Part shown: piece by piece, positions 1 through 17,026 of the stretch
Numbering within the stretch: position 1 is the stretch's first letter
Layout of the letters: each line of letters starts with the position of its first letter
Virus record (IMG/VR): IMGVR_UViG_3300044957_000444
Coordinates: 1-26,297 of that record
DNA from: a virus
Reading direction: 5' to 3' (one strand)
DNA: 26,297 nt
Made by a program: the position numbers and the translations under genes
Notes under the pieces: generated by a model
What the model was told of the DNA's origin: nothing
Databases searched by the model: none
Seen by the model: only the letters and a program-made list of their open reading frames with translations

Positions 1-360
1 ACTCCATCAGCTATTGTTGCTCGTGATAGTTCTGGTAACTTTATTGCTGGTACGATTACAGCAAACTTAACAGGAACAGCTACCTCTACAACTAATATAC
101 CAAATCTTACTGGTGATGTAACATCTATTGGTAATGCTACAAGTATTGCTGCAGGTGTTATTGTTAATGCTGATATAAATGCTAGTGCTGCTATTGCAGT
201 TTCTAAATTAGCAGCATCAACGATTTCTGGTGTTTCATTAGGATCTAATTTAGGTACATTAACTTTGAATACATCTGGAAATGGTATTTCCGGTTCTACA
301 ACTTATAATGGAAGTAGTGGTACTACATTTACTGTTACCTCTAATGCTACTTCAGGAAAT
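1..360 (+). repeat. Long in-frame direct repeat, copy 1 of the fibre shaft
   Basis: This stretch is almost identical to 898-1257 (offset 897 nt, a multiple of three), with only scattered differences. It encodes the same shaft repeats, beginning TPSAIVARDSSGNF. The copy may extend upstream of the window. Confidence 0.9.
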
Positions 361-3300
361 ACTGTATCAACTATTGTTCAAAGAGATAGTTCTGGTAATT
401 TTAGTGCTGGTATTATTACTGCATCAAGTTTTAGTGGTTCTGGTTCTTCACTAACGGGTATTGTAACTTCTCTTACTGCCGGATCTGGTATTTCACTTAA
501 TCAATCCACAGGTAATGTAACGATTACTGCAACTGGTGGTGGTGGTGGATCTTCTCAATTTGTAACTACGGCAGCAGGTATTCATACTTTAAGTAATGTT
601 GGAATCGGAACCACAAATCCAACAAGTGCATTAACAGTTTCTGGTGATGCAAGAGTTACTGGTGTGGTGACTGCATCAAGCTTTGTAGGTAATCTTACAG
701 GTACTGCAACATCAACGACAAATATACCAAATCTTACTGGTGATGTAACTTCTATTGGTAATGCTACAACTATTGCTGCAGGTGTTATTGTTAATGCTGA
801 TATAAATGCTAGTGCAGGGATTGTAGATACTAAATTAGCAACCATAAGTACTGCTAATAAAGTTAGTAATAGTGCTACCACCGCAACTAATGCAAATACT
901 CCATCAGCTATTGTTGCTCGTGATAGTTCTGGTAACTTTATTGCTGGTACGATTACAGCAAACTTAACAGGAACAGCTACCTCTACAACTAATATACCAA
1001 ATCTTACTGGTGATGTAACTTCTATTGGTAATGCTACAACTATTGCTGCAGGTGTTATTGTTAATGATGATATAAATGCTAGTGCTGCTATTGCAGTTTC
1101 TAAATTAGCAGCATCAACGATTTCTGGTGTTTCATTAGGATCTAACTTAGGTACATTAACTTTGAATACATCTGGAAATGGTATTTCCGGTTCTACAACT
1201 TATAATGGAAATAGTGGTGCTACATTTACTGTTACCTCTAATGCTAGTTCAGGAAATACTCCATCAACTCTTGTTCAAAGAGATAGTTCTGGTAACTTTA
1301 TTGCTGGTACGATTACCGCCACATTTAGCGGAAATGTAACTGGTGATTTAACTGGTGCAGTTACATCTTCAGGTGCAAATGGTCAACTTGTCAGATTAGA
1401 TGATCGTATTATTGAACCAAGTGCTCTAACTGCAGGAAGATTGCAGTTTGGATTTACTTCTTGGAACAATAACAATGGTTCTCCATATGCTGATTATTTA
1501 CATTTAAGATCTTATACAGATGCTAGTGGTGGTAATGATAATTTAGTCATGTTCCGAAAGGATACCCTCGGAATGAGAATTTATCAGCAAAGTTTTGGAT
1601 CTACAACTGCATATTCTTCAGTAGCTGAGGTTCTTCTTAGCACAAATTACACCTCGTACGCGCCATCTCTGACTGGCACCGGTGCTTCTGGTACCTGGGG
1701 GATTTCAATTTCTGGTAATGCTAATAGCGCATCTACTGCTGGATCTGCTACAGTGGCTTCTTCTATCACAGGCGGAATCGCCAACGGAGCTGATAATTAT
1801 ATCAATTTAAGAGTCATTCGTAATGCCAACGCATCCCCTCTAGATGGCATGTACATAGGTTATGGCAACGGAGGCAGCGGAAATACTCGCCTCTATGGCG
1901 GAGGAAGCACTGGCAATCACGCTTACGTTGATGCCGATGGTAACATCTACAGATCTAGCGGAGGATATCAATATGTGTACAATACTGGTACCTGGGGGAT
2001 TTCAATTTCTGGTAATGCTAGTTCTGCAAGTAGTGCGCCTTTTGATGGATTAACATCTAAGGCAAGTGGCACTGGAACTTATACAACATCTGGAGACTTC
2101 AGAGCACCAATCTTCTACGATTCAAATAATACTGGGTATTATGTAGATCCTGCAAGTACTTCTAATCTTAATAAGTTTAGTGAGTTCACTATGGCTTATA
2201 ATAGTATGAATCCGATGTCTGCTAACTCTCCTTATGCTGCTAGATATTCTGGTTCTATTGGCTATAGAAATGGAACTATGGGTAATGGAACTACGGATTT
2301 TAATGTGATGTTTTCTAACTGGGGATCTGGATTTATAGATTCATGGAGCAGTCCTGGAAATGCTCCTGGTGGGTCTTCTCATTATGTAGGATTACAAGGA
2401 CTTCACTATAACCATGTAAATAACTCTCAAGGATATGGTTTCCAGATGGCTTGTGCAGGAGAATCTGATAACAGATTCTTTTGGAGAAGTGCGTGGCCTA
2501 ATTTAAGAAGCTGGGTGGAGATGATTCATTCTGGTAACTACACCTCCTACGCGCCATCTCTGACTGGCAGCGGTGCTTCTGGTACATGGGGGATTTCAAT
2601 TTCTGGTAATGCTAGTTCTGCAAGTAGTGCGCCTTTTGATGGATTAACATCTAAGGCAAATGGCACTGGAACTTATACAACATCTGGAGACTTTAGAGCT
2701 CCAATCTTCTACGACAGCAATAATACTGGATACTATACAGACCCAGCCAGCACTTCAAACTTAAATGTTGTTACAGCCAATGGAGGGATGTATGGGATAT
2801 GGTGGGAACCGATAGGCGTAGGTGGCAACAGCGGTAACGGTAGTTATTCCTATCGTATTTTCCAAGAAGGTGGTGCATGGAGTCACCCATATCCTGATTT
2901 AAGAATCGCATACCATACAGGTATTAAATTTGGTGCAAATTCTAGTTATGAAGGTATGCGATTCTACACTGACGCCGACATGCCAACATTGGTATTCCAA
3001 GTTAATGGTCCATCCGGCTACCTGTTCAAGTATAATTGGATGTACACCAATAGTACTGGTTTCTATTCTGGTGATAATAATGCTCATTGGAATCCAAATG
3101 TAGAAAGTTCATATGGTTCATGGCGATTAGTTGGAACTAGAAATGGTTGGACTGGAATTTATTTTGGATCTGGTGGAGACCAAGTCAATCATTTAATGTT
3201 TGAGAGCAATAATGGAGGGTTCTACTCCCAAAACAGTGGAAGATGGTGGCTGTATTACAGTTATGGAAATGCTTCTTGGGGTGTTAATACTTCTACAACA

Positions 3301-3681
3301 TCTTCATCTTATGCAATCTATTCTTCTGGAGCAATTTACTCCACAGGAAACATTGTTGCGTACTCAGATAGAAGAAGTAAAACTGACATTAAAGTAATTG
3401 ATAATGCTTTAGACAAATTATTAAATCTTCGTGGTGTAACTTACAGAAAAATAGATATAAAAACAAACAAAGTAAATGAAAAAATTGAATCAGGTGTTAT
3501 TGCTCAAGAAGTAAATGAGGTGTTTCCAGAAGTAGTGACTTATGCTGAAGATGTTGATGAGTATGGGGTATCCTATGGAAACTTTGCAGGACTCTTCATT
3601 GAGGCAATTAAAGAACAGACTACAATTATAAATAACTTGAAAAAAGAAATTGAAAATTTAAAATCTAAATTGGGAGAATAA
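1..3681 (+). CDS. Repeat-rich tail fibre protein with C-terminal S74 chaperone (5' partial)
   Basis: The reading frame is open from base 1 with no start codon in the window, so the gene begins upstream; 1,226 codons are visible. The first ~460 residues are low-complexity Ser/Thr/Gly/Asn repeats (motifs such as ARDSSGNFIAGTITA and NIPNLTGDVTSIGNATTIAA recur), typical of trimeric phage fibre shafts. The middle carries two copies of a Tyr/Asn-rich module with the motif FYDSNNTGYY.DPAS. The last ~105 residues, starting YSDRRSKTDI (Ser codon 3364, Lys codon 3379), match the peptidase S74 intramolecular chaperone: Ser plus a Lys five residues later, then GVIAQEVNEVFPE and a terminal coiled coil (AIKEQ..IINNLKKEIENL). 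In this family the chaperone trimerises the fibre and cuts itself off before that Ser. Probable role: receptor-binding fibre at the virion tip. Fibre function is inferred; the S74 domain is clear. Confidence 0.9.
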   Translation, partial: TPSAIVARDSSGNFIAGTITANLTGTATSTTNIPNLTGDVTSIGNATSIAAGVIVNADINASAAIAVSKLAASTISGVSLGSNLGTLTLNTSGNGISGSTTYNGSSGTTFTVTSNATSGNTVSTIVQRDSSGNFSAGIITASSFSGSGSSLTGIVTSLTAGSGISLNQSTGNVTITATGGGGGSSQFVTTAAGIHTLSNVGIGTTNPTSALTVSGDARVTGVVTASSFVGNLTGTATSTTNIPNLTGDVTSIGNATTIAAGVIVNADINASAGIVDTKLATISTANKVSNSATTATNANTPSAIVARDSSGNFIAGTITANLTGTATSTTNIPNLTGDVTSIGNATTIAAGVIVNDDINASAAIAVSKLAASTISGVSLGSNLGTLTLNTSGNGISGSTTYNGNSGATFTVTSNASSGNTPSTLVQRDSSGNFIAGTITATFSGNVTGDLTGAVTSSGANGQLVRLDDRIIEPSALTAGRLQFGFTSWNNNNGSPYADYLHLRSYTDASGGNDNLVMFRKDTLGMRIYQQSFGSTTAYSSVAEVLLSTNYTSYAPSLTGTGASGTWGISISGNANSASTAGSATVASSITGGIANGADNYINLRVIRNANASPLDGMYIGYGNGGSGNTRLYGGGSTGNHAYVDADGNIYRSSGGYQYVYNTGTWGISISGNASSASSAPFDGLTSKASGTGTYTTSGDFRAPIFYDSNNTGYYVDPASTSNLNKFSEFTMAYNSMNPMSANSPYAARYSGSIGYRNGTMGNGTTDFNVMFSNWGSGFIDSWSSPGNAPGGSSHYVGLQGLHYNHVNNSQGYGFQMACAGESDNRFFWRSAWPNLRSWVEMIHSGNYTSYAPSLTGSGASGTWGISISGNASSASSAPFDGLTSKANGTGTYTTSGDFRAPIFYDSNNTGYYTDPASTSNLNVVTANGGMYGIWWEPIGVGGNSGNGSYSYRIFQEGGAWSHPYPDLRIAYHTGIKFGANSSYEGMRFYTDADMPTLVFQVNGPSGYLFKYNWMYTNSTGFYSGDNNAHWNPNVESSYGSWRLVGTRNGWTGIYFGSGGDQVNHLMFESNNGGFYSQNSGRWWLYYSYGNASWGVNTSTTSSSYAIYSSGAIYSTGNIVAYSDRRSKTDIKVIDNALDKLLNLRGVTYRKIDIKTNKVNEKIESGVIAQEVNEVFPEVVTYAEDVDEYGVSYGNFAGLFIEAIKEQTTIINNLKKEIENLKSKLGE
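718..815 (+). repeat. Partial third copy of the fibre shaft repeat
   Basis: The segment encoding NIPNLTGDVTSIGNATTIAA and the following VIVNADINASA is nearly identical to parts of both flanking long repeats (about 94-190 and 990-1087). This gives three tandem-like modules within 1.1 kb. Confidence 0.8.
898..1257 (+). repeat. Long in-frame direct repeat, copy 2 of the fibre shaft
   Basis: Second copy of 1-360, in the same reading frame. The near-identity at the nucleotide level, including synonymous sites, points to recent duplication or gene conversion. Confidence 0.9.
1987..2173 (+). repeat. Distal fibre module repeat, copy 1
   Basis: Starts GGTACCTGGGGGATTTC and runs through the FYDSNNTGYYVDPAS motif. 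It matches 2581-2767 with few changes at an offset of 594 nt (in frame). A shorter related piece with the same TSYAPSLTG.GASGTWGISISGN motif lies at about 1648-1720. Confidence 0.85.
2581..2767 (+). repeat. Distal fibre module repeat, copy 2
   Basis: Second copy of 1987-2173, again ending in FYDSNNTGYY.DPAS, with Thr in place of Val after the second Tyr. It lies upstream of a unique segment that may be a receptor-contacting region. Confidence 0.85.
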
Positions 3682-4641: not shown

Positions 4642-4833
4642 ATGTCAACAAGGGAATGGAATAATCCCACCAGAGAACCCTGGAATGGGCCAATACATAA
4701 AATTTTAAAAGCAATCGATAATCATACCAAATTATATCTTAAGACTGGTGATAAATGGCACGAAAAAAAAGCACAAATACTTAGAGAATATGTTTTAGAT
4801 CTTAAAAAATGGATTCATAAAGAAGAATTATAA
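4642..4833 (+). CDS. Hypothetical small basic protein (63 aa)
   Basis: Begins MSTREWNNPTREPWNGPIHK; Trp- and Lys-rich with a predicted helical second half (HEKKAQILREYVLDLKKWI). No signal peptide or membrane span. It has its own small unit behind a terminator and a late-promoter-like CTAAATA, and no obvious Shine-Dalgarno. It converges with the lysozyme frame on the other strand, overlapping it by 6 nt at 4828-4833. Family not recognised. Confidence 0.65.
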   Translation: MSTREWNNPTREPWNGPIHKILKAIDNHTKLYLKTGDKWHEKKAQILREYVLDLKKWIHKEEL

Positions 4834-5337
4834 AATTTTATATCCAGTATTCCAAAGATTTCCCTCTGCCTTTCTTCTACGAGCAAGTCCTACCTCAACA
4901 TTACTACCAGGATTACGATAAAGATAAAGAGCATCGGGCACTAAGTTCCACTCTTTATTCTTTAATCTTCGTGTAATTGTAGCAAAATCCCCAGAACCAA
5001 AAAAGTCAGCCCCAAGATTGTAAGCAAAACTAAGAAGAGCACCGCGTTGTCCATCATTCATCTCACTCCAATAAGGTATTTTTGAGAGTTTAGGAATAAA
5101 CTCAGTTTTAATTTGATTGATTAATAAATCATCTGCTGTTATTTGTGAAATTTTTTGACCAAGATAAAATGGATTTCCATTCATATCTCTGGTGCTTCCC
5201 CATCCAATCGTAATTGGAACTCCACCAGATAAAGGATCTGGATATGCCTCCAGATGACAACCTTCAAACTCTTTAATTAACTCTACTCCTTTAGCAGGTA
5301 TATCATACTTGCTGTTAGAAGAAGTAGAGTTTTCTAC
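4828..5337 (-). CDS. GH24-type phage lysozyme domain, likely expressed by -1 frameshift
   Basis: The frame encodes a complete GH24 muramidase: KGVELIKEFEGCHLEAYPDP (catalytic Glu in FEGC), PITIGWGSTRD, a helical core (QRGALLSFAYNLG) and the C-terminal signature GLARRRKAEGNLW. An ATG-started version (from 5184) would lack the catalytic Glu and half the active site, so it cannot be the real start. Upstream in this frame there is no ATG, GTG or TTG before an in-frame TGA just ahead of the slippery site. The frame is entered exactly by a -1 slip on A-AAA-AAG (5343-5337) at the end of the upstream peptidase gene. Coordinates start at the first codon after the slip; 169 residues. An ATT start at 5277, behind AAAGGAG, is a weaker alternative. 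Role: cleavage of host peptidoglycan for lysis. Confidence 0.85.
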   Translation of the reverse strand, partial: VENSTSSNSKYDIPAKGVELIKEFEGCHLEAYPDPLSGGVPITIGWGSTRDMNGNPFYLGQKISQITADDLLINQIKTEFIPKLSKIPYWSEMNDGQRGALLSFAYNLGADFFGSGDFATITRRLKNKEWNLVPDALYLYRNPGSNVEVGLARRRKAEGNLWNTGYKIL

Positions 5338-5362
5338 TTTTTTACTTCAAAAATTCTCCCCC
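5326..5362 (-). promoter_or_regulatory. Candidate programmed -1 ribosomal frameshift signal
   Basis: Reading on the - strand: a purine-rich Shine-Dalgarno-like GGGGGAG (5362-5356), 12 nt, then the heptamer A-AAA-AAG in the correct phase (GTA AAA AAG then stop TAG). The sequence AAGTAGA overlapping the heptamer and stop can pair with TCTACTT around a 4-nt AAAC loop. The same heptamer with an upstream internal Shine-Dalgarno drives -1 frameshifting in E. coli dnaX. The hairpin here overlaps the slip site instead of lying 5-9 nt downstream, so its role is uncertain. Confidence 0.65.
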
Positions 5363-6029
5363 ATCCATCACTTCCACCAGGACACCAACGATACTTAAGC
5401 ACTTCTTTTGAATATCTTGCTCCTTTACCATTCATAACAGGTCCGGTATATCCATCATTCAAACTTCCATAAGGATCATTTACAACATAAGATTGACCGT
5501 CCTCAGATTTACCAATTACAACAAGCATATGCCCACCAGTAGGAGCAGACAAAGAGCCTCTATGAAGAATCCCAATAACAACAGGTCGTTCAGCAGCAAT
5601 CTCACGATCCAAATCTGCGAAAGTAAGATTGTAACTAAACCGAGATTGAATACCATAAGAAGCTAATACCTTGGTTTGTACTTCGTGATCTGTTGTGTCT
5701 CCTATCTGAAATACTTTGGTTACATAGGCATCATCTCCTTGTGCTCCTTTGAGAGTTCCTGGTTTAAAATACTCAAGACACATTGCACAAGCAGATGAAT
5801 TACAAGTGCGTTGTGCATCTCTATAATTGTCTGTTTGTGGAAAATAAGGAACATCAAGCACAGAAGATTTTGGTTTTTCTGGTTTTGTTCTATAGATTCT
5901 TACCCAGTTTGATGTATCATCAATCAAAGGTGAATCAATTAAATCTTTTTCAAGTTGTTCCACAGCAGCAACGTGCTTTGGATTTTTTTCATCATAATAC
6001 TGAAAGAAATTATGTAAATCAATTTTCAT
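5334..6029 (-). CDS. C39-like cysteine peptidase, N-terminal domain of a two-part endolysin
   Basis: 231 aa. Residues ~57-195 fit the Peptidase_C39_2 / papain-like fold: LDVPYFPQTDNY, then Cys76 in RTCNSSACAM, His167 in GGHMLVVIG and Asp185 in VVNDPYG, a complete Cys-His-Asp triad. No signal peptide. The ATG is preceded by GGAG at 8 nt. The first 55 residues form a charged leader of unknown role. The stop TAG sits directly after a slippery A-AAA-AAG, and a -1 slip would extend the protein by 169 residues of GH24 lysozyme (total 400 aa). Known relatives cleave peptides; here an amidase/endopeptidase acting on peptidoglycan cross-links is plausible, giving a muramidase plus peptidase endolysin. 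The substrate is inferred from context. Confidence 0.85.
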   Translation of the reverse strand: MKIDLHNFFQYYDEKNPKHVAAVEQLEKDLIDSPLIDDTSNWVRIYRTKPEKPKSSVLDVPYFPQTDNYRDAQRTCNSSACAMCLEYFKPGTLKGAQGDDAYVTKVFQIGDTTDHEVQTKVLASYGIQSRFSYNLTFADLDREIAAERPVVIGILHRGSLSAPTGGHMLVVIGKSEDGQSYVVNDPYGSLNDGYTGPVMNGKGARYSKEVLKYRWCPGGSDGWGRIFEVKK

Positions 6030-6607: not shown

Positions 6608-7411
6608 TCAACTCTCTGATGAGGATTTTGCGACAGAATTTTCGGTTATCCGACCCAGATAAGGATTATAGTTCATGTAATCTTTAATATCAATATTGGC
6701 ACCATTTTGTTCCCAGAATTGAAAAAGAGCATTATAATTTGCTCTGTGAAATATATCAATATGTTCTGGATGAATCGAAGATCCAAGTTCTATTCTGTAA
6801 AGTAAAAGTGGAATACTATAAGTATTACCAGAATTATAAATTAAATCATCGGCAACAGGACGTGGTTTAACACCATTATCAAGTTTATATTTTTCCCCTT
6901 TAATATGAAATCTTATAAGTTTTTCTGCATGATGACGATTGATTAAATAGCAGGCTGTAGAAAAATCATTTACAAATCTTTTATGAAGTTTAACGTGAAT
7001 ATCTCCGGTACAAATAATCGCAATTTGAATTACATCCCAATCATAAGGGACATGAGCATAAAAATCATTCCAAGTAAAATTCCAAAATCTCACCAAATCT
7101 AAATTACAATCATCTTCCATAATCACCGCATATGAACTATCAGAAGTTTCATACCAATGCTTAATAGCCTTAAGATGAGAAGTAGTGCATCCAATCTCAC
7201 TAGATGTCATCATCTCAGGATAACGTCCAGTAAGAATGTCACTCAAATCATCATCTCTACCATCATATGCAGAGATACGTGTATAATTTTGGATTTCCCA
7301 ATACTTAAACTGATCTTCCATATATTGGCGTCTTTCTGGTTGATCATCTAAATTAAGGTAGTAAATGGGATCAAAGTTTTGGAGTTTGTGTGCAGATTTA
7401 TTTTTATCCAT
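6608..7411 (-). CDS. Glycosyltransferase family 25-like protein
   Basis: 267 aa from the ATG at 7411, which overlaps the upstream GT11 stop as TAATG; a TTG 15 nt earlier is possible but less likely. GT25 hallmarks: a start strand YYLNLDDQPERRQYMEDQF, then EIGCTTSHLKAIKHW and the metal-binding acidic strand YAVIMEDDCNL, with a later PVADDLIY segment. No membrane span, so a cytosolic transferase. GT25 members (the LPS beta-galactosyltransferase LgtB family) add sugars to LPS cores or O-chains. It is the last gene of the glycan operon. The sugar donor cannot be read from sequence. Confidence 0.85.
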   Translation of the reverse strand: MDKNKSAHKLQNFDPIYYLNLDDQPERRQYMEDQFKYWEIQNYTRISAYDGRDDDLSDILTGRYPEMMTSSEIGCTTSHLKAIKHWYETSDSSYAVIMEDDCNLDLVRFWNFTWNDFYAHVPYDWDVIQIAIICTGDIHVKLHKRFVNDFSTACYLINRHHAEKLIRFHIKGEKYKLDNGVKPRPVADDLIYNSGNTYSIPLLLYRIELGSSIHPEHIDIFHRANYNALFQFWEQNGANIDIKDYMNYNPYLGRITENSVAKSSSES

Positions 7412-8265
7412 TAAATAATTTCCCAATCACAACAATAAAGATCTTTTGTATCATGAAATGAATATGCGGAACCAAACCACATTTTTGGTGCTATTACCTT
7501 TTTATTTGGATTTTTTTGCAACCAAGCACCCCACCAACTCATAGAACTATTGGCAATAATAGCATGAGAACAAAGAGACATTAAACATAGATCTACATAC
7601 GGAACTAATGCTCCATCATCATATTTGTCCTCTGGTTCAGAAAACATGAATCGATCTGGTTTAAAAAACTCTTGTTCTTTACACCATTCAATAGAATCCG
7701 AGAATACAAGAACTGGTATATTATCTGAAAAATATGCCAATGCCTTTTCGTAATATTCCAATGGTTGAACTGGATGTTGATCTTGAAGATTCACATAAGC
7801 CCATTTAAATCCACGTTTATCTGTCAGATTAGGATCTCCCCTACGAACATGTAAAAAAGCAACTTCTTGATCTCTAAATTGCTTCATGAATTCTTGACAT
7901 GGTTCTAACCATTCTTTTTTGAAAGTGTAGTCTTCACGAACTTCATCCTTTACATGTTTAAAATATTTTTCTGTTTGAAAAAACCCAACCACATTTGCAC
8001 TATCAGGACAATCATTGAATAATTCTTCATCAAAATGAAAATGAGATTCTTGTGCAGGAATCATGTTATAAGAAAACTTGACATGATCTACATTTTTCAT
8101 TTCAAATGCATCAAACAATCCATAATTATCAATCTGGAATTCTGGATGGTGTGGTGGAATAGAGTATTCAAACCCCCTATTTCTAGCAATTCCTTTTACT
8201 GCGGCATGTTGGAACATTTGATTTCCCAAACGACCCATAGTACCAATATTATCAAATCCAATCAT
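7411..8265 (-). CDS. GT11 alpha-1,2-fucosyltransferase-like protein (downstream copy)
   Basis: 284 aa with the GT11 motifs in order: GTMGRLGNQMFQHAAVKG at the N-terminus, the GDP-sugar-binding HVRRGD at 139-144, VFSDSIEWCK near 187-196, and the C-terminal signature DLCLMSLCSHAIIANSSMSW with SWWGAWL. Family length is about 280-300. GT11 enzymes use GDP-L-fucose to make Fuc-alpha-1,2-Gal (H antigen) in bacteria and animals. The ATG overlaps the end of the epimerase gene by 14 nt with AGGA upstream, so the two are coupled. A second GT11 lies at 10629-11555. The sugar may be L-galactose here (see findings). Confidence 0.92.
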   Translation of the reverse strand: MIGFDNIGTMGRLGNQMFQHAAVKGIARNRGFEYSIPPHHPEFQIDNYGLFDAFEMKNVDHVKFSYNMIPAQESHFHFDEELFNDCPDSANVVGFFQTEKYFKHVKDEVREDYTFKKEWLEPCQEFMKQFRDQEVAFLHVRRGDPNLTDKRGFKWAYVNLQDQHPVQPLEYYEKALAYFSDNIPVLVFSDSIEWCKEQEFFKPDRFMFSEPEDKYDDGALVPYVDLCLMSLCSHAIIANSSMSWWGAWLQKNPNKKVIAPKMWFGSAYSFHDTKDLYCCDWEII

Positions 8266-9100
8266 TTTTCATTTCCTCAAACACTTTAGCAATCCCATTA
8301 TCTATTGTAGTCTTTGGTACCCACCACCCAGTAATATAAGTATTTGCTTCATTCCTTTTATCCATTTGAACACTATCTTTTTCTAAACCTGGTTTAATAT
8401 TTACCTCTCTACCAATTAGTCTAAACTGATCCCGAATGATTTCAGCAATCTCTTTAATAGAAGTTGATCTAAATGATGTAATGTGAAGAGGATCTTCTGG
8501 TTTAAAATCAGTATAATTTTCCATTATGGTTTCTAATGCTTCACAACAATCTTCAGCATACAGAAATTGTCTTTCCTCTGTACCATCCGTCATCATCTCA
8601 AAATCACCTTTTTCAAATCCTTTTCGAATAAAATCAGTGATTACGTGTGCCTTTTCGTGATCATTTTCAATACCATAGACATTCCAGAATTTAACAGTCA
8701 ATCCATTCAGTGCAGTGGTGTAAAGTTCACCAACTCTCTTCATCACACCATAAGGAGAGTAACTCATATTACTCATCTGAGAAGATGCGAATACAAATCT
8801 CTTATTATATTTTTCAAGAAGATCGAATGCATTTGCAATGATGCGAGTATTATTATTGATAAAATCAAAAGTATGTTGATACTTTTTGAGATACCTAGAA
8901 CCACCTACATCAAATGCTAAAAAGAAAACAAAATCAGAATCCATAATCACACGATGAAGTTCTGGATTAGGAATAACGGTTAGATCTTGATGTTCTCCAT
9001 TGACAACATCAAACTCATGAATCTTATGTCCCTTGTTACCCAAATATTTTGTCAAATAGGCACCGATCTGACCACCAGAACCCAATATCGCAATTTTCAT
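8252..9100 (-). CDS. NAD-dependent sugar epimerase/dehydratase (extended SDR)
   Basis: 282 aa. Rossmann signature GSGGQIGAYL at 7-16, acidic strand ending FDV, and the SDR catalytic pair in SPYGVMKR (Tyr117, Lys121) with an upstream Ser in FASSQMS; WNVYG follows as usual. C-terminal half has the RQFLYAEDCCEAL motif of nucleotide-sugar SDRs. It acts on a nucleotide sugar in the cytosol; the exact reaction (4-epimerase, reductase or dehydratase) is not decidable. A weak AGGA precedes the ATG, and a 70-nt AT-rich gap upstream may hold a promoter. Confidence 0.85.
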   Translation of the reverse strand: MKIAILGSGGQIGAYLTKYLGNKGHKIHEFDVVNGEHQDLTVIPNPELHRVIMDSDFVFFLAFDVGGSRYLKKYQHTFDFINNNTRIIANAFDLLEKYNKRFVFASSQMSNMSYSPYGVMKRVGELYTTALNGLTVKFWNVYGIENDHEKAHVITDFIRKGFEKGDFEMMTDGTEERQFLYAEDCCEALETIMENYTDFKPEDPLHITSFRSTSIKEIAEIIRDQFRLIGREVNIKPGLEKDSVQMDKRNEANTYITGWWVPKTTIDNGIAKVFEEMKNDWI

Positions 9101-9141
9101 TTTTAAATTTCCTAAATTAGATTAATCTTATTAATTAAAAA

Positions 9142-9169
9142 AATATAATATATTTTCTTCCAATCGCAA
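9142..9169 (-). promoter_or_regulatory. Possible internal sigma70-like promoter in the glycan operon
   Basis: TTGCGA (9169-9164), 16 nt, TATATT (9147-9142), upstream of the SDR gene in one of the few real gaps of the operon. The AT-rich background makes chance matches likely. Confidence 0.3.
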
Positions 9170-9901
9170 TTAAACGAGTTTAGAAGGATAATAAGTGCTT
9201 GGACAATTGTTCAAATCTGGAACTCCTTGAAGACTACTTAAATTATATTTAACGTTATCAAAAAACGTATCAGATTGTGAAATATCCATTCCCATTTCTG
9301 TGATTTTAGTTGATGTTACTCCACTATTATGTCCATCTTGTTTAAAAATAGGCATATCCAAAGAATAAACATTATAGTATTTTTGTATTTCAGCATATCC
9401 ATTATCCATGTGATCCATAAGTTGATAGCCACAATACTTAGATATGCGAGAGCAAACTTTGCGATATTCTTCAGAAAAATAGATTACAGCATGTCCAGAC
9501 AACATATTATATACTTGGACTATTTTATCATTAATTTTTTTATAATGCAAAAATGGACCAGAAAAATTTAAATATCTTGCCCACTGAGATACTCCAATGA
9601 ATAGAGCATCAGCATCATCAGGAACTTCAATTTCAAATTCATAATTACCAGTAAATAAACAGTCATCTTCCATTAACAAAAATGGAGTTTGAATTGAAGT
9701 ATCAGACAAAACTTTATGTTGAGATCTGGCACACCCAACTTTGCCGTCATCACACTTAACTCCAGAAACTCTTGTCACAAAAGAAAAGTTAAGTCTATTG
9801 AGAGTATACTCAATGGATCTCCTTCTATCTTCTTTTTCATCAAGATTAATATAGTAAGTATTTAAATTTCTTAGGTTAATTTTCATATCAAATGTTACCA
9901 T
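9170..9901 (-). CDS. Glycosyltransferase family 25-like protein (second)
   Basis: 243 aa. The start strand NTYYINLDEKEDRRRSIEYTL, the motif GCARSQHKVL and the acidic strand FLLMEDDCLF match GT25. It is distantly related to the GT25 at 6608-7411, with much divergence. The first ATG (9901) overlaps the GT6 gene by 14 nt; another ATG at 9886 sits one base after the GT6 stop and would give MKINLRNLNTYYINLDEK, an equally good start. No membrane segment. Likely adds one sugar in the same glycan. Donor and linkage unknown. Confidence 0.8.
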   Translation of the reverse strand: MVTFDMKINLRNLNTYYINLDEKEDRRRSIEYTLNRLNFSFVTRVSGVKCDDGKVGCARSQHKVLSDTSIQTPFLLMEDDCLFTGNYEFEIEVPDDADALFIGVSQWARYLNFSGPFLHYKKINDKIVQVYNMLSGHAVIYFSEEYRKVCSRISKYCGYQLMDHMDNGYAEIQKYYNVYSLDMPIFKQDGHNSGVTSTKITEMGMDISQSDTFFDNVKYNLSSLQGVPDLNNCPSTYYPSKLV

Positions 9902-10619
9902 ATTGATCTAATTCTCTTTTTTCTTGATTAAATGAGGTGTCAAAAGCATCCTTATTAACTGCAATCAGTTTTGGTTTCCAGGGGTAATTTGAATAATTAA
10001 CCAGTTCTTCAGGAAACATATAACTTGGAGAAAGATCTTTTGGAGGATTCTCATTGAAATATTTGTTCAAATGACTTTCGTCATGCCACACTGCAACAAT
10101 TCCATTCTCCTCATCTTTAGAAACTCTTTCAGAAATAGTCCTTGCCATTTCCAGAAACTTCTCAGATCTACCACCAGCAAATGCTGCAGCATAATACTTA
10201 TTTCTATTATTATCAGGAACATAAGCAGTAGACTGCTTTCTTACTTCATAAGGATAGACAGACTTATCCTCGAGCACTTTGTATGGATGAATTACACCAA
10301 CCAAATCTTCAAGAACTTCATCTCCAACCTTATCCACAAAATAAACATCAGCATCAAACAGGTAAGTATAATCAAACTGTTTAAGATACTCTCTCTCAGA
10401 ATAAATGTAGTTGTACTTTTTCAATGCTGGTTCAGGCCAGATCTTATGTTCAATTTTACTAACTTTAATATTATCAGAAGTCTCTTCTAAATCATTATCA
10501 GTAAAAAGAAGACAACTAATATCATGATCTACCAAAAAATTATTTTCAATAGATTTAAGAAGTTTTTCAACAAATTGAATATACCTTCCAGTTGCAATTG
10601 TAATTACACAAATTTTCAT
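9888..10619 (-). CDS. GT6 family (ABO-type) alpha-1,3-glycosyltransferase
   Basis: 243 aa. Strong family-6 pattern: LLFTDNDLEE, WPEPALKKY, the nucleotide-metal motif YLFDADVYF with DxD at 89-91, GDEVLEDLVGVIHP, TAYVP, KYYAAAFAGGR, and the catalytic block AVWHDESHLNKYF (Glu181, equivalent to the mammalian catalytic Glu) ending with LSPSYMFPE. GT6 includes the human blood-group A and B transferases and alpha-1,3-galactosyltransferases, which retain configuration and move GalNAc or Gal onto galactose. Bacterial members often have NxN; this phage one keeps DxD, as animals do. It lacks the Golgi anchor and stem, so it is a soluble minimal catalytic domain. It directly follows a GT11 gene (gap ~9 nt). 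Confidence 0.92.
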   Translation of the reverse strand: MKICVITIATGRYIQFVEKLLKSIENNFLVDHDISCLLFTDNDLEETSDNIKVSKIEHKIWPEPALKKYNYIYSEREYLKQFDYTYLFDADVYFVDKVGDEVLEDLVGVIHPYKVLEDKSVYPYEVRKQSTAYVPDNNRNKYYAAAFAGGRSEKFLEMARTISERVSKDEENGIVAVWHDESHLNKYFNENPPKDLSPSYMFPEELVNYSNYPWKPKLIAVNKDAFDTSFNQEKRELDQYGNI

Positions 10620-10628
10620 TTTAATAAC

Positions 10629-11555
10629 TCAATTATATGTCATTTGAATCCAACCATTTGGAATGAGATCTTTCGTATCATTACTCTTCATAAGATCTGG
10701 ACCAAACCATGGTTTTGGAACTATTATATCATTCGTTCTATTCTTTTGCAACCAAGAACCCCACCAACTCAGAGAACTTGTTGCTGTAATGCCGCCATTA
10801 CACAAACTCATTAAACAGAGATCAGTATAAGGAATAGTTGATGATCTAAATTCAGGATTACCATCTAACCATAACCAACACTTACCAGAAAATTTTTCAT
10901 TATTTTCAGATAAATAAAACCTTTCATCTTTAAAAAATTCTTGATCTTTACACCAATCAATTTCATCACTACAGACAATTACAGAAACATTATCGTTGAA
11001 TTTTTTTAAAGCAGGTGCATAATAATCATCAAAAGTTTTATTCTTACAAAGATGTTCAAATCCATGGGCATCACCTCTACGAATATGCAAGAAAATAACC
11101 TCACTAAACTGAGATACAAAATCTTTACAAGGTTCTAAAATTTCATCAATGAATTCAAAATCTTCACGAATTTCTTGTTCAATATGTTTGAAGTATTTTT
11201 CAGATTGAAAAAATCCATCAATATTTGTATTGTCTTCTACTTCATTAAAAAGTTTTTCATCAAATTCAAATGATTTTTCAATTTTATTTTTGATTTGCGG
11301 GTTTGAAGATGCAAGTGATTCAAAACTATATCTTTGTTGATCTCCAACATTTTTATTTAAAATTCCAATATTACTTTCCTTTAAATGAGGCATTTTAAAA
11401 GGAAATTGAATACAATAATCAGTTAATGATAAAATATCTTTATCAGGAATACACCAATCAAATCCACGATTTGCAGCAATACCACGAAGAGCAGCATATT
11501 GAAACATTTGATTTCCCAATCTTCCATTGCTTCCTAATCTGTCGTATGAAATCAT
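10629..11555 (-). CDS. GT11 alpha-1,2-fucosyltransferase-like protein (upstream copy)
   Basis: 308 aa. Same architecture as the other GT11: LGSNGRLGNQMFQYAALRG, HIRRGD at 157-162, VIVCSDEIDWCKDQEFF, and DLCLMSLCNGGITATSSLSW with SWWGSWL. An extra stretch (~residues 60-95) is missing from the shorter copy. Start is set by an ATGA overlap with the preceding gene (11552-11555). Its C-terminus ends 9 nt before the GT6 gene, placing an H-antigen-type enzyme immediately ahead of an ABO-type enzyme. The two GT11 copies are clearly homologous but diverged, suggesting different acceptors. Confidence 0.92.
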   Translation of the reverse strand: MISYDRLGSNGRLGNQMFQYAALRGIAANRGFDWCIPDKDILSLTDYCIQFPFKMPHLKESNIGILNKNVGDQQRYSFESLASSNPQIKNKIEKSFEFDEKLFNEVEDNTNIDGFFQSEKYFKHIEQEIREDFEFIDEILEPCKDFVSQFSEVIFLHIRRGDAHGFEHLCKNKTFDDYYAPALKKFNDNVSVIVCSDEIDWCKDQEFFKDERFYLSENNEKFSGKCWLWLDGNPEFRSSTIPYTDLCLMSLCNGGITATSSLSWWGSWLQKNRTNDIIVPKPWFGPDLMKSNDTKDLIPNGWIQMTYN

Positions 11556-12430
11556 AGTTTTAATTCTGATGGATCAAATTTATAATCAGAGTCTAAAAAT
11601 ACTCTGTTAGGATATGTAGGTTGATAAAAATTATCTCTCACAAGTGTCTGATTAAAATTCAATAGGTGTGAGATCCAACTATAAGAACTTTTAGACATAA
11701 TTAAAAGATTCGCATTTGACATATGATAAATGTCATCTATTGGATGTTCATTTAATTTTAAAACAATCTCAAAGTTTTTATTTGATAATTCTAACAAATC
11801 TATAAAATCGTTTTTATTTCCTTGAGAATGAATATAAACGCACACATTTTTATTATATAATCTTTCCTTTAAAATATCAAAAATATTTTGAATATGACTA
11901 GAATCCTTATAAACAAAATATGTCTCCATTTCTGGATAAGTTGGGACATCGCAAGAATTAAGTGCTCTTAAATGAAGACTAATATTGAAAGCATTTTTAT
12001 CAAAATAAATTTGATTAGAATAGATAAGATTTTTTTTTATTTCTTTCAAATAATCATTTTGATACATTTCATCAATCAATGGAAATCCATTTTTGATTAT
12101 AAAATTCTTATCAACTTCCACACAAATATTTTCTTTACAGTCTTCATTCTCGCCAATAAAGTCTAATAGATCTTGATATTTACCACTAAAGTCATATTCA
12201 ACATCAAACTTTTGTGACTTATTTAAATTGAAAAATTTAGTAAAATCTTCACTCCATCTTTCTTTGGGAACACTATTATACTGATAATGTGATATGTTTA
12301 TAAATGGATCAGCAAAAAAATCTACTTCAAGTTTTTTACAAATTCCATAAAGAACTAGATTCCATTGAGCAACAGAGCCTATTCCTTCCTTTCCAAATCC
12401 ATTAACATTAGTTTTTAAAAAAATAGACAT
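11552..12430 (-). CDS. Fucosyltransferase-like GT-B protein, divergent
   Basis: 292 aa. No clean family match, but it has ISLHLRALN (HxR, like the GDP-binding motif HxRRGD) at about 150-158 and, near 240-265, DDIYHMSNANLLIMSKSSYS followed by WISHLLN, which parallels the GT11 C-terminal signature (LCLMSLC...NSSMSWWGAWL). I infer a remote fucosyltransferase-type GT-B enzyme using a GDP sugar. The two key Arg/Asp residues of GT11 (RRGD) are not conserved, so the donor or linkage may differ. Very AT-rich. ATG start, no clear Shine-Dalgarno; its end overlaps the next GT11 by 4 nt. Confidence 0.65.
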   Translation of the reverse strand: MSIFLKTNVNGFGKEGIGSVAQWNLVLYGICKKLEVDFFADPFINISHYQYNSVPKERWSEDFTKFFNLNKSQKFDVEYDFSGKYQDLLDFIGENEDCKENICVEVDKNFIIKNGFPLIDEMYQNDYLKEIKKNLIYSNQIYFDKNAFNISLHLRALNSCDVPTYPEMETYFVYKDSSHIQNIFDILKERLYNKNVCVYIHSQGNKNDFIDLLELSNKNFEIVLKLNEHPIDDIYHMSNANLLIMSKSSYSWISHLLNFNQTLVRDNFYQPTYPNRVFLDSDYKFDPSELKL

Positions 12431-12432
12431 AA

Positions 12433-12561
12433 TTAAAAATTCAAATATTTACGAATTTCGTGCAAGTTAGCATCACACTGAATATAATCTTTAGGAATAC
12501 TTCGCAAAGTTTTTAAAAATTCTTCAGAAATAAGTTCTGGTTTAACATATTTATCCATCAT
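12433..12561 (-). CDS. Small hypothetical protein in the glycan operon (42 aa)
   Basis: ATG at 12561 overlaps the stop of the sugar dehydrogenase as ATGA, and TAA lies at 12433-12435. Sequence starts MMDKYVKPELISEEFLKTL and continues RSIPKDYIQCDANLHEIRKY. Soluble and charged. It fills the only gap between two glycan genes and is translationally coupled to the upstream one. It may be a genuine small protein or the remnant of a larger enzyme; no family recognised. Confidence 0.5.
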   Translation of the reverse strand: MMDKYVKPELISEEFLKTLRSIPKDYIQCDANLHEIRKYLNF

Positions 12562-13775
12562 TTTACTATTCCCCAATAATCAACAACTTTTTTATCAACA
12601 TAATTTAAATCACCGAATAATTTATCGGGATGCATAATCACCACCACATCCGAGTTATCAATACATTCCTGAGGATTTGAGAACTCATTAATGTTCATAT
12701 CAAGATTAGAATATGTTTCAAAAATAGAATCATAACCATTTACTTCAATTTCAAGATCTAAAAGATCTCTTATTAATCTTGCAGATGGAGATCCAATCAC
12801 AACAGGAGAGTTTGGTTTAAATGAAATTCCAAGAACTCCAACTTTTTGATAAGATTTAAGCTTACTCAAAATACTCCCATAAACCATTTCATTTACTTCT
12901 TCTGCAAAAATCAAGTTTTTTGCAGTTTTTTTTCTATCCTTTGCAAATTTTATAAATGCAGAAGTATCTCTTGGAAAACAAGTTCCACCATAAGGAGTTC
13001 CATACCCAAAAAAGTAAGGAGAAATTCTTTTATCTAATCCAATTGTTTGAGTAATATTATGAATATTTACATTATTCATTCCTTCGCAAAGTTGTCCTAA
13101 AAAATTTGCAAAAGTAATCTTATTTACGATATAAGCATTTAATGCAACCTTAGCAACTTCTGCTTCCTCTAAAGTTAAAATTTTTCTTGGTGGATCATTA
13201 TCATGAAATTTATACCAAATTGATTGAGTCATTATGGTGTCTTCAATATTGTTTGCACCAACTAAAAAGAATTCTGGATTTTTAAAATCTTTTATCACAC
13301 TACCAAGTTTGACAAAATCGGGAACATAAGAAAACCCAAACCCCTCACCATGAATTCTTTTAGAAATCTTTTCAACGTGTTTAATTAAGTTTTTAATGGT
13401 TCCTGGAAGAACCGTTGAAGAAAGAACAATAAGATGATAATCTTTAGTACTTTTTCTCAAGTTCATCGCAAGATCTGTGAGTGCAGATTCAACAAACTCA
13501 GATGAATAACCATTGTCACCAAGTTGAGTATTAACTAAAATAATAGTCGCATCAGTTTCATCAACCGCTCTTTGATAAGAATCAGTAAATCCAATAAAAT
13601 TTACATGAGGAAAAATATCAGATAATCCTGGTTCATAAAAAGGAACTTCTTTATTATTAAGTTTATCTAAAATAAACTCATTTTTATCAACACCAAGAAC
13701 TTTATTTCCGGATTTTGCAAGACAACATGCAAGAGGTAATCCTAACTTTCCCAATCCAACAAAACTAATTTTCAT
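12558..13775 (-). CDS. UDP-glucose/GDP-mannose 6-dehydrogenase family protein
   Basis: 405 aa, normal family length. N-terminal Rossmann motif VGLGKLGLPLA (GxGxxG at 7-12), middle helix EAEVAKVALNAYIVNKITFAN with the family's Lys209 and Asn213, and the catalytic-Cys loop GYGTPYGGTCFPRD (Cys266). The family oxidises the C6 of a nucleotide sugar (UDP-glucose to UDP-glucuronate, or GDP-mannose) with two NAD+. The usual active-site Glu in the (S/N)PEFLREG motif is Asp here (VPDFVKLGS), and the following Arg is Leu; a substrate other than UDP-glucose is possible. Coupled both ways: ATGA overlap with the adenylating enzyme upstream and with the 42-aa ORF downstream. Confidence 0.9.
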   Translation of the reverse strand: MKISFVGLGKLGLPLACCLAKSGNKVLGVDKNEFILDKLNNKEVPFYEPGLSDIFPHVNFIGFTDSYQRAVDETDATIILVNTQLGDNGYSSEFVESALTDLAMNLRKSTKDYHLIVLSSTVLPGTIKNLIKHVEKISKRIHGEGFGFSYVPDFVKLGSVIKDFKNPEFFLVGANNIEDTIMTQSIWYKFHDNDPPRKILTLEEAEVAKVALNAYIVNKITFANFLGQLCEGMNNVNIHNITQTIGLDKRISPYFFGYGTPYGGTCFPRDTSAFIKFAKDRKKTAKNLIFAEEVNEMVYGSILSKLKSYQKVGVLGISFKPNSPVVIGSPSARLIRDLLDLEIEVNGYDSIFETYSNLDMNINEFSNPQECIDNSDVVVIMHPDKLFGDLNYVDKKVVDYWGIVK

Positions 13776-14986
13776 TTCGATATAATCCTCACTAATTTAT
13801 TTTTCCAGTAAATATCATATTGCTCATCTTTTGCAATAACAAATTCAGTGTCCAATCCAACATTTTCTTTTACCCAATCTGCATAAGGTTTCAGTGCATC
13901 AAAATTTTCTTCATTTCTAAATCTAACATGAAGAATTAAAGTTTTTCTTGGAATATTTACCTCACATCTCCATTTTTCAATTATAGATCCTACAGTATGT
14001 GAAATTGGAGCAACAATCCACCAACCAATTGCTTTTTTTACCTCTGGCCCATTATAATAATCAACTCCACGACCAATTATATCATAAAGAACATAATATT
14101 GTCTACCATTGTTTTCAACTTTCTTCATCTTTCCCCTATCACCACACCTATAACGAAAGATAGGAGTTTGATGGTTATTGAAGTCTGTAACTACAATATA
14201 TCCCTCTTCATAGTCTTTTACCGGATTTCCATCATCATCAAGAATTTCAACAATTCCTTGTTCCATTATTACACGAAGATTTCCATATCCATCAGTTGAG
14301 GCAACAGTTGGGAGTTCAGCAAGACCATATTGTTCGTGGAATTCTTTGACGAAAGGAATCAATCTTTCCTTGTGTCCATATGAACTTTCACTACACCAAT
14401 GAATTTTAATATCTTTAAGAACGTCAGCATGTCCCGCATCAATAATCATTTCACACAATTGACGAATAGATCCTCCTGATCCATGAATAAGAAATGGTTT
14501 ATGTTTAACTACCCAATCAACATGCTTTTGAGAAAGTGTTTTATAATTCATTGCTTTCACATTTCTCAGACTATCATAAAATGGATAATTTGGTTCTCCA
14601 GAAATTAATCTAAAAACCCATTCATTTTTTCTACCCATTCGCATCCAACTACGAGTAAAAATAGCATCCTTTCTATACCAGGAAGAAGAAGGAACCCAAA
14701 TTACTCTTGGTTGTCCTGTAGATCCAGATGTTTCGTGCTGTCTCATTTCCTCATTAGGAAAATTAGGACTATCTGGGAGATCTGATTTAGTCATTACTGG
14801 AAGACTATAAAAATCATTCCAAGTTTGAATATCAATTCCAAACTTTGATGATGTTTCTTTAAGTCGTTCAAATTGAAAATTCTTTAATTCACCAATAGTT
14901 TTATTTTCCATCTCAATAAAGAAATTGAGGTATGAAATTTGATTAAAGGTAAACCTATCAAAAATTTTATACAGTAATTTTTTCAT
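13772..14986 (-). CDS. PaaK/CapK-like adenylate-forming enzyme
   Basis: 404 aa from the ATG at 14986, which overlaps the aminotransferase stop as ATGA; a GTG at 15007 is the alternative. ANL-superfamily motifs: phosphate loop HETSGSTGQPRV near 85-95, HWCSESSYG, ASTDGYGNL, and FRYRCGDRG around 277-286, then GRGVDYYNG. Relatives are phenylacetate-CoA ligase (PaaK) and CapK of capsule loci, which activate a carboxylate as an acyl-AMP. In a sugar locus between an aminotransferase and a uronate-forming dehydrogenase it might activate an acid for N-acylation of an amino sugar or amidation of a uronic acid. The substrate is not evident. Confidence 0.85.
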   Translation of the reverse strand: MKKLLYKIFDRFTFNQISYLNFFIEMENKTIGELKNFQFERLKETSSKFGIDIQTWNDFYSLPVMTKSDLPDSPNFPNEEMRQHETSGSTGQPRVIWVPSSSWYRKDAIFTRSWMRMGRKNEWVFRLISGEPNYPFYDSLRNVKAMNYKTLSQKHVDWVVKHKPFLIHGSGGSIRQLCEMIIDAGHADVLKDIKIHWCSESSYGHKERLIPFVKEFHEQYGLAELPTVASTDGYGNLRVIMEQGIVEILDDDGNPVKDYEEGYIVVTDFNNHQTPIFRYRCGDRGKMKKVENNGRQYYVLYDIIGRGVDYYNGPEVKKAIGWWIVAPISHTVGSIIEKWRCEVNIPRKTLILHVRFRNEENFDALKPYADWVKENVGLDTEFVIAKDEQYDIYWKNKLVRIISK

Positions 14987-16068
14987 ATAATTGGAAAATC
15001 TAAACACTTTTGAATGATGTAATCAACTTCATCATTTGTTATTTTATTATGTATAGGAAGTAAAATAATACTATCCGAAACTTGAGTTGCATTTGGAAGA
15101 CCTGATTTTTTCCAAAGTTCTTGTTGATGTACCGCAGTCCAACATTTTACCACAATTCCATTAGAAAACAAATATTCTACCATTTTATTTCTAATTTGCG
15201 AATCAACCATAATTCCATAAAAGAAATAATTTGATCGACAATAATTCGGAATTACTTGAACCTTAAATTTTGTAGATAATTCTTCTGTATATTTTCTAGC
15301 AATTTGATTCCTTCTTTCTACATATGAATCAAGTTTCTTTAGTTGTTCTCGTAAAATTGCAGCTTCAATGTCACACATTCTAAAGTTAAGTCCAAATCGA
15401 TTGTGAATATATTCATAAGACTTTTTATTTGAAGAGTAACCATGATTTACAATTGATCTACAAATTTCTGCAAGTTGATCATTGTTAGTGGTGATTAGTC
15501 CACCCTCACCTGATGTAATAATCTTTGATCTTTGAAAACTAAAACAATGAAGATCAACTTGAGTTCCAATTTGTTGATCTTTATAAGTTGAACCTAAACT
15601 CTCAGCACTATCCGCAATTAGGTAAACTCCAAGTTTTTTAAATTCATCATAATTACAAGGAACTCCACCAACATCAACAAGCATTACAACATTAACATCC
15701 TTAGGAACATCTTCTGCACGAATGTTCCAATTATCTAAATCACAATCAACAAGTTCAACATCATCCAATACAAACTTTGCAGCATTTGCAGATGCAATAA
15801 AAGTAAAAGATGGAACTGCTATTTTTTTAATTTCAGAATAAACTTCTTTGAGTGCAAGAAGTGAAGTCATTAATGCAGTAGTGCAATTAGAAACTAGAAT
15901 TGCATGTTTACAACCAAGTCTTTGTTGAAATTGTTTTTCTAAAAGTTCAAGATTTTCTCCTTTTACACCAATCCCTTGAGAAAGAGATTTGAGTGCGGCA
16001 TTAATTTCTTCTGAACCAATATCCACATCGTCCCAGTTAATTAATTTCATACTTTTCGCAAAACTCAT
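14983..16068 (-). CDS. DegT/DnrJ/EryC1/StrS sugar aminotransferase
   Basis: 361 aa, typical fold-type I length. PLP site: NCTTALMTSLLAL (phosphate binding), ADSAESLG (Asp153, pyridine N) and the Schiff-base lysine in SFQRSKIITSGEGGLIT (Lys182), where most relatives have SFHATK. The C-terminal NHGYSSNKKSYEYIHNRFG and FRMCDIEAAILREQL segments fit the family. These enzymes put an amino group on a keto nucleotide sugar using glutamate. Two ATGs are possible (16068, or 16050 giving MKLINWDDVDIG); both overlap the kinase-like gene, with no clear Shine-Dalgarno. Confidence 0.9.
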   Translation of the reverse strand: MSFAKSMKLINWDDVDIGSEEINAALKSLSQGIGVKGENLELLEKQFQQRLGCKHAILVSNCTTALMTSLLALKEVYSEIKKIAVPSFTFIASANAAKFVLDDVELVDCDLDNWNIRAEDVPKDVNVVMLVDVGGVPCNYDEFKKLGVYLIADSAESLGSTYKDQQIGTQVDLHCFSFQRSKIITSGEGGLITTNNDQLAEICRSIVNHGYSSNKKSYEYIHNRFGLNFRMCDIEAAILREQLKKLDSYVERRNQIARKYTEELSTKFKVQVIPNYCRSNYFFYGIMVDSQIRNKMVEYLFSNGIVVKCWTAVHQQELWKKSGLPNATQVSDSIILLPIHNKITNDEVDYIIQKCLDFPII

Positions 16069-17026
16069 TAATAAGAATTACTGAGGTATAATATGCAACT
16101 TTTGATCTTGCATCTACACCATCAAAATCAAGAAGAAATGGAACAAGACTTGCAAAATGCATTACTTCATTCCACTCTGTTTTTCTCATTACATCTGCAG
16201 GATCTTCTAGGGAATGATCATAAAGAACTTGTGGAAGCGATTTTTTAAGATTTTCACAAAGTTTGAATACATCATTATCAAATAATTTAAAGTTACTTCC
16301 ATCAAATTCAAATTGACGAGAAGCAATCATTTCATATTTTCCATTTACAGAGTGCCAAAACTTTCCATAGTCATAATAATAATCACAATAATCATAACCA
16401 CGGGGATCAATCATAATGAATTTATCATTTACACGATCAATCAAAACATTGGAGAAATGGAGATCAGAATGACTCCAACGACCAACAAATTCTGGTTGGA
16501 CTGTTTGAAGAAATTTTTGTGTTTTAAATTTTTCCGCAAGCACTGAGATGTTTTTATATTCATTATCATTTACAATAACGGTTTGTTGTTGAATAAGATT
16601 TTTAAAAAAATCAGATTTTTTGGACAGTTCTTCAAGACGATTACTTAAGCGAGTAAAGTGCATTATATTAAAGTAATCTTCAGGTGTTGGGAGAATTTGA
16701 TACTGATATAGTCTACGAGAAAGTTTTGTAATTTTATTTGCCCAATAGAGTACTTCCTTTTCATCAATTTCTCCAGAAAGAATTAATCTACGAAGAGTTG
16801 GAAGATCATAATGTTCCATCTCATAAAATGCTTTATTACCATCTATTCCATAAAAAATAATACGAGGAAAGTAATCTTTGAATTCTTCAGGAATATTTTC
16901 AATGAACTCATATTCATCTACAAGCTTCATCATCCGTTCGTCAGAAGCTTCTTTATGAACCCTGCTGACCAAGATAACCTTTGTTTTTCCACCACTTTCT
17001 TGTTTTAAATAATCAGAATTATTCAT
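16037..17026 (-). CDS. APH/choline-kinase-fold phosphotransferase-like protein
   Basis: 329 aa from the ATG at 17026 (8-nt overlap with the phosphatase gene; a GTG at 17041 is less likely). The kinase catalytic loop appears as RWSHSDLHFSNVLID (Asp and Asn in the HxDxxxxN pattern) followed by the metal-binding IMIDPRGYD and DYYYDYGKFWHS, as in aminoglycoside or choline kinases. The N-lobe YEFIENIPEEF...FYEMEHYD is weakly kinase-like. Substrate unknown; in a glycan locus it may phosphorylate a free sugar or related metabolite. It lies next to a HAD phosphatase, a pairing seen in nucleotide-sugar pathways. Confidence 0.75.
   Translation of the reverse strand: MNNSDYLKQESGGKTKVILVSRVHKEASDERMMKLVDEYEFIENIPEEFKDYFPRIIFYGIDGNKAFYEMEHYDLPTLRRLILSGEIDEKEVLYWANKITKLSRRLYQYQILPTPEDYFNIMHFTRLSNRLEELSKKSDFFKNLIQQQTVIVNDNEYKNISVLAEKFKTQKFLQTVQPEFVGRWSHSDLHFSNVLIDRVNDKFIMIDPRGYDYCDYYYDYGKFWHSVNGKYEMIASRQFEFDGSNFKLFDNDVFKLCENLKKSLPQVLYDHSLEDPADVMRKTEWNEVMHFASLVPFLLDFDGVDARSKVAYYTSVILINEFCEKYEIN

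Follow-up and report, generated by a model that had tools for sequence, protein, structure and literature searches.

Evidence for conserved programmed -1 ribosomal frameshifting in the peptidase-lysozyme endolysin gene of T4-like cyanophages

Introduction

Among tailed phages, programmed -1 frameshifting is best known from the tail assembly chaperone of the lambda gpG-gpT type, where it yields one short protein and one extended protein. In bacteria, the high slippage of the heptamer A_AAA_AAG in E. coli has been tied to the sole tRNA-Lys of this organism (reviewed in PMC5009743). The same review describes a few other bacterial dnaX genes that obtain their long form by slipping. An upstream Shine-Dalgarno element need not be present at a -1 frameshift site, and according to the review none is apparent in the cso2 frameshift case. 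Endolysins that are made in a long and a short form from a single gene, as is predicted here, have been characterized for CTP1L, Ms6 LysA and 2638A (PMC9430671, PMC4777826, PMC3111421). These differ from the present case in that they use an internal start in the same frame and their short form is C-terminal; PMC9430671 nowhere uses the word 'frameshift'. Another report (PMC10885494) names lysins among the genes said to contain frameshifts and cites a lactococcal case, which concerns a different host.

The stretch of DNA analysed here, called the window, is the 26,297-base IMG/VR virus record IMGVR_UViG_3300044957_000444. Judged by its relatives, the window is a fragment of a T4-like cyanophage. 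It carries an endolysin gene in which two enzyme domains are encoded in different reading frames. The comparisons below indicate that a conserved programmed -1 ribosomal frameshift very probably operates in this gene, and that a short peptidase and a peptidase-lysozyme fusion are predicted to be made from one gene in the window phage and in dozens of its relatives. The mechanism itself has been described before; what appears to be new is its employment in this endolysin, along with its conservation there and the reversals of its topology. No description of this case was found in searches of the open-access literature on frameshifting in cyanophages and endolysins.

The endolysin locus in the window

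The whole two-frame region lies on the minus strand of the window, running from 6029 to 4828 (Table 1). The first-pass annotation had described a peptidase frame ending GTA AAA AAG TAG with an in-phase A_AAA_AAG, a -1 slip into a complete GH24 lysozyme frame that has no start before its catalytic Glu, and a two-domain form of 400 aa. The sequence and its translation bear out all of this. The peptidase ORF terminates in GAA GTA AAA AAG TAG, and after a -1 slip the reading would continue GTA GAA AAC and on through the lysozyme to a TAA at 4830-4828. The predicted fusion is 400 aa long, with 231 aa from the peptidase frame and 169 aa from the -1 frame. Counted back from the last base of the stop, the -1 frame is open for just 13 nt, with a TGA upstream of that, and the heptamer is the sole slippery site within this opening. 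ATG, GTG and TTG were sought in the -1 frame upstream of the catalytic Glu of the lysozyme, and none was found. The 118-aa ORF that starts at an internal ATG is probably not a real product.

Table 1. Positions of the endolysin features in the window, and of the truncated lysins annotated in isolates
Feature	Position	Strand	Basis
C39-like cysteine peptidase, 0 frame; predicted short product, 231 aa plus TAG	5334..6029	-	Pfam, PHROG, invariant triad
Slippery heptamer A_AAA_AAG in the phase of the peptidase, abutting the stop	5337..5343	-	sequence; conserved in relatives
TAG, 0-frame stop that slipped ribosomes would pass through	5334..5336	-	sequence
Predicted stimulatory stem-loop with a small inner hairpin	5279..5331	-	folding; covariation and recoding in relatives
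-1 frame, linker and GH24 lysozyme (169 aa together), accessible only via a slip	4828..5337	-	translation
GGGGGAG, Shine-Dalgarno-like, within conserved GWGR codons	5356..5362	-	comparison with loci without an adjacent lysozyme
118-aa ORF from internal ATG, 'lysin' of gene caller	4828..5184	-	begins past the catalytic Glu
Annotated truncated 'lysin' of S-PM2 and S-CAM7	L001 2457-2675; L008 2608-2826; L405 1111-1383; L406 1165-1383		

The peptidase of the window matches Pfam PF13529 (Peptidase_C39_2; E 1.3e-13, 52.1 bits against a gathering score of 24) and the endolysin family PHROG 10051 (E 1.6e-90). Three residues that probably form a C39-like triad, Cys, His and Asp, are invariant among the peptidases compared. 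The lysozyme of the window is 81% identical to that of the in-frame relative L027, which matches Pfam PF00959 (Phage_lysozyme; E 2.8e-18, 66.9 bits against a cut-off of 22.3). The lone NCBIfam match was to GH24 and lay far under its cut-off. Both domains match families of cell-wall hydrolases; their enzymatic activity, a role in lysis and the ratio of the products are presumed. Structure prediction of the fusion gave a mean pLDDT of 33.6 without an alignment and a moderate mean of 65.8 with 14 sequences, the latter with two domain blocks linked by residues 230-239, a stretch of low confidence that coincides with the slip site.

In S-PM2 the 'putative lysin', and in S-CAM7 the lysin, are annotated as fragments of about 72-90 aa that begin at an internal start and lack the catalytic Glu, as would be expected if the lysozyme frame is entered by the predicted frameshift. 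PHROG 10457 ('endolysin', 95 positions) probably reflects the same truncation.

Other genes in the window were also noted. A run of sugar genes on the minus strand at 6608-18382 (GT25, GT11, NAD-dependent epimerases, UDP-glucose/GDP-mannose dehydrogenase and a DegT aminotransferase) looks like a phage-borne surface-polysaccharide cluster. A second lysozyme-like protein, distinct from the endolysin, is encoded on the minus strand at 22159-22791 and belongs to Phage_lysozyme2 (tail lysozyme, PF18013). A large repetitive tail-fibre-like protein with a C-terminal Peptidase_S74 chaperone domain lies at 265-3681. A second frame break, in NrdA at the edge of the window, was considered and rejected, as that gene is continuous.

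Conservation of the frame break and the heptamer

Scans of IMG/VR together with isolates gave 169 non-redundant cyanophage loci that encode this peptidase; these loci are related, so the counts given here are counts of sequences and not of independent events. The lysozyme is in the -1 frame in 113 loci, in the 0 frame in 23, in the +1 frame in none, and is not adjacent in 33. A slippery heptamer is found 0-6 nt before the stop in 99 of the 113 -1-frame loci, and it is A_AAA_AAG in 95, T_TTT_TTT in three and A_AAA_AAA in one. Both the A6G site and the frame break recur across dozens of divergent lineages in the homologue comparison that had been proposed as a check on the window, and this outcome strongly favours a programmed -1 frameshift.

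The heptamer is confined to the junction. A_AAA_AAG is present there in 67 of 80 representatives, and it was found in phase at none of the 17,897 codon positions elsewhere in their peptidase frames. Lys-Lys pairs away from the junction are coded AAA AAG in just 4 of 37 cases. No X_XXY_YYZ heptamer was found near the C-terminus of the 31 peptidases without an adjacent lysozyme that were searched.

Among the isolates, S-PM2 is 77% identical to the window in the peptidase and 74% identical in the lysozyme. Its junction reads GCA AAA AAG TAA and is followed by a lysozyme in the -1 frame that has no start codon. The three S-CAM7 isolates have the same arrangement with T_TTT_TTT as the heptamer, and a spacer of about 5-6 nt is followed by a stem.

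The downstream RNA stem

An RNA stem downstream of the slip site at near-fixed spacing is expected of ribosomal frameshift signals; in those of the dnaX type a stem-loop or pseudoknot lies some 5-8 nt away. The stem in the window has 13 bp (arms 5331-5319 and 5291-5279) and starts 5 nt past the heptamer. Its stability is -20.9 kcal/mol (z -4.7), which none of 200 shuffled sequences equalled. In 61 representatives, the longest uninterrupted helix has at least 8 bp in 59, and the helix starts 2-8 nt downstream in 58. When 66-nt segments were folded successively along the gene in these representatives, the mean z was -2.43 right after the heptamer and ranged from -1.1 to about +0.6 elsewhere.

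Three main linker families can be told apart by the first residues of the lysozyme, KGVEL, LVGIxL and CGVDL. In each of them the 5' arm after the heptamer complements a 3' arm that encodes these first residues, and 91-95% of positions pair in register as against 12-51% when the arms are slid. Pairs changed on both sides number 6, 3 and 5 in the three families, and between families the 5' arm, which codes for linker alone, varies together with the 3' arm. Permuting the 3' arms within families gave pairing equal to or slightly below the real pairing; this test had little power because the arms within one family are alike. Mean stability was -16.2 kcal/mol for the natural sequences and fell to -9.1 kcal/mol after synonymous recoding of the -1 frame (n=61), with a mean z of -2.44 and 67% of loci below -2. 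Control segments further downstream gave values near 0. As recoding weakens the stem and has little or no such effect on the controls, the stem is selected as RNA and is not a mere by-product of the peptide.

Two other elements had been suggested as stimulators from the window alone, and neither is supported. The 7-bp hairpin AAGTAGA/TCTACTT has a stability of -6.1 kcal/mol and overlaps the slip site, and it is the 13-bp stem that is conserved in relatives. The GGGGGAG lies in codons for Gly-Trp-Gly-Arg and is not specific to frameshifting loci; relatives without an adjacent lysozyme have comparable Shine-Dalgarno-like matches equally often, and the matches are no longer at the frameshifting loci (2.85 nt) than in these relatives (3.1 nt).

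Alternative explanations

Could the lysozyme be made separately, by ribosomes that terminate at the end of the peptidase and re-initiate nearby? An ATGA, GTGA or TTGA overlap of stop and start is present in 30 of the 113 -1-frame loci, including the isolate S-SRM01. These 113 divide into 83 with a heptamer and no overlap, 16 with both, 14 with an overlap alone and none with neither, so that every heptamer-free locus has an overlap. The overlap loci are also less structured (mean folding z -0.79). Separate initiation of the lysozyme is thus possible in these 30 loci. In the heptamer-only loci a start codon (ATG, GTG or TTG) precedes the first Glu of the lysozyme in 39 of 83, but there is none in the window, S-PM2 or S-CAM7, and coupling leaves the heptamer, the stem and the spacing between them unexplained. 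As an account of the conserved arrangement it is very unlikely.

The main concern raised by the first-pass annotation was a plain indel or an error of sequencing or assembly, by which a gene that is truly one frame would have lost one A of the homopolymer in the window. The pattern that was named as refuting a frameshift, one frame with one extra A, does exist: the L027-type loci and L135 have A7 in one uninterrupted frame, with the downstream stem kept. These are exceptions against more than 80 loci with a broken frame, and their A7 may be either a real variant or a homopolymer error. Several observations are difficult to explain by error. Most lineages have the broken frame with A6G, and its direction never varies. 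The junction in the record of an S-PM2 deletion mutant is identical to that in the other S-PM2 record, and the break is identical in all three S-CAM7 isolates. The closest relative of the window, L080, is a separate contig and has the same junction, and the heptamer and stem are under selection at the RNA level. Error is thus excluded as a general explanation by these comparisons, and it is highly improbable as the origin of the arrangement. Transcriptional slippage on the A tract, which would yield mixed products and is suggested by the A6 run and the existence of A7 variants, is likewise improbable in the extreme, as the bacterial cases reported in PMC5009743 occur on runs of nine A or T, longer than A6G, and an RNA stem at near-fixed spacing fits slippage of the ribosome and not of the polymerase.

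Proposed mechanism

The programmed -1 frameshift, as first proposed for the window, is largely upheld by the conserved frame, the heptamer, the covarying stem and the recoding test. Ribosomes translating the mRNA of the C39-like peptidase would arrive at A_AAA_AAG immediately ahead of the stop, where the stem-loop about 5 nt beyond the heptamer would stall them. The lysine tRNAs would shift back by one base to pair with AAA_AAA, and some of the ribosomes would enter the -1 frame and append a short linker and the GH24 lysozyme. A single mRNA would then yield a peptidase-only protein (231 aa in the window) and a peptidase-lysozyme protein (400 aa in the window). From the features described we infer slippage itself, its rate and the action of both proteins on the cell wall at lysis.

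The tRNA complement of the hosts is consistent with such a site. Synechococcus WH7803, which is the host of S-PM2 and may differ from the host of the window phage, has one tRNA-Lys, with anticodon UUU, among 43 tRNAs. Pattern matches for tRNA-Lys in three other Synechococcus/Cyanobium genomes gave one UUU each and no CUU. The frame arrangement, the heptamer, the covarying stem, selection at the RNA level and the single host tRNA-Lys(UUU) can all be read from the sequences. By analogy with E. coli, the rate of slippage in this endolysin gene may be high. It is plausible that the ratio of the two cutting activities is fixed by the ribosome.

The phages DSL-LC02 and DSL-LC03 (L004, L003) encode peptidase and lysozyme in two separate genes, both of which carry a copy of the N-terminal segment IDLHNFF.... 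This segment is possibly a targeting or binding module. In the frameshifting phages the lysozyme would obtain it through the predicted fusion. The segment may be dispensable for the lysozyme in some cases, since the loci with a stop-start overlap could make a lysozyme without it.

Variation at the junction

Variations in the junction among homologous genes have been observed. In ACG-2014f and its close relatives L009 and L116-L118, the peptidase and lysozyme are in one frame, and A_AAA_AAG is followed by TCTGA. Here a -1 slip would meet a TGA one codon on and give a predicted short form; a stem of 7-8 bp lies about 5-6 nt downstream. The same inverted topology is found in L136, of the other main clade, with the long stem kept. 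The heptamer in ACG-2014f may have been retained by chance. In the L148-type loci an ATGA is present and the heptamer is absent.

Loci with an extra segment (about KFIDAVK...) between the domains, which are L148, L149, L150, L152, L154, L158, L169, L178, L267, L270 and L272, have the ATGA overlap and no heptamer. In S-CREM1 (L005 1459-2640) the same two domains occur in reverse order, with the lysozyme first.

In a quick tree of the peptidases, many inner branches of which are weak, the S-CAM7 type is nested within in-frame fusions, and a different deep clade contains the A6G type. The A7, inverted (L136, on a long branch), overlap and peptidase-only forms are scattered inside the A6G clade. 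This distribution suggests separate origins and repeated switching of the junction forms. It can be proposed, tentatively, that cyanophages have repeatedly evolved a peptidase-only protein and a fusion from one gene and set them at a fairly even ratio, with S-CAM7 having evolved its own signal and ACG-2014f and L136 having flipped the default product. If this were true, the persistence of both products after their roles had flipped would suggest that the ratio of activities, and perhaps the timing of lysis, is selected. The family is a natural experiment on frameshift signals at one junction, with two heptamers, three linker families with distinct stems, an inverted topology and replacement by a stop-start overlap.

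Comparison with known systems

The system closest in its signal is E. coli dnaX (tau/gamma), which has the same A_AAA_AAG, a stem-loop a few nt downstream and a single host tRNA-Lys(UUU), and which makes two products with a common N-terminus, as is predicted here. ACG-2014f and L136 match the layout of dnaX in that their -1 frame stops one codon later. Unlike in E. coli dnaX, the window phage and most of its relatives would obtain the long form by slipping, the cyanophage site has no specific upstream Shine-Dalgarno element, and the gene and its role are unrelated. The tail assembly chaperone differs in being a structural protein encoded by another gene with another slip site. The in-frame cyanophage endolysins (PHROG 3617; ACG-2014f, L094-L132) have the same domains in the same order in one reading frame. 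Programmed -1 frameshifts are on record for few phage genes. The cyanophage gene, from viruses that infect Synechococcus and related freshwater bacteria, would be a conserved addition to them.

The internal-start model of two polypeptides does not fit the window, as the domains are in different frames and no -1-frame start precedes the catalytic Glu. Unlike in endolysins of the CTP1L type, it is the N-terminal enzyme that forms the predicted short product, and the frameshift would append a second enzyme to it. Frameshifting would thus be a second route, beside internal starts, to two proteins from one endolysin gene.
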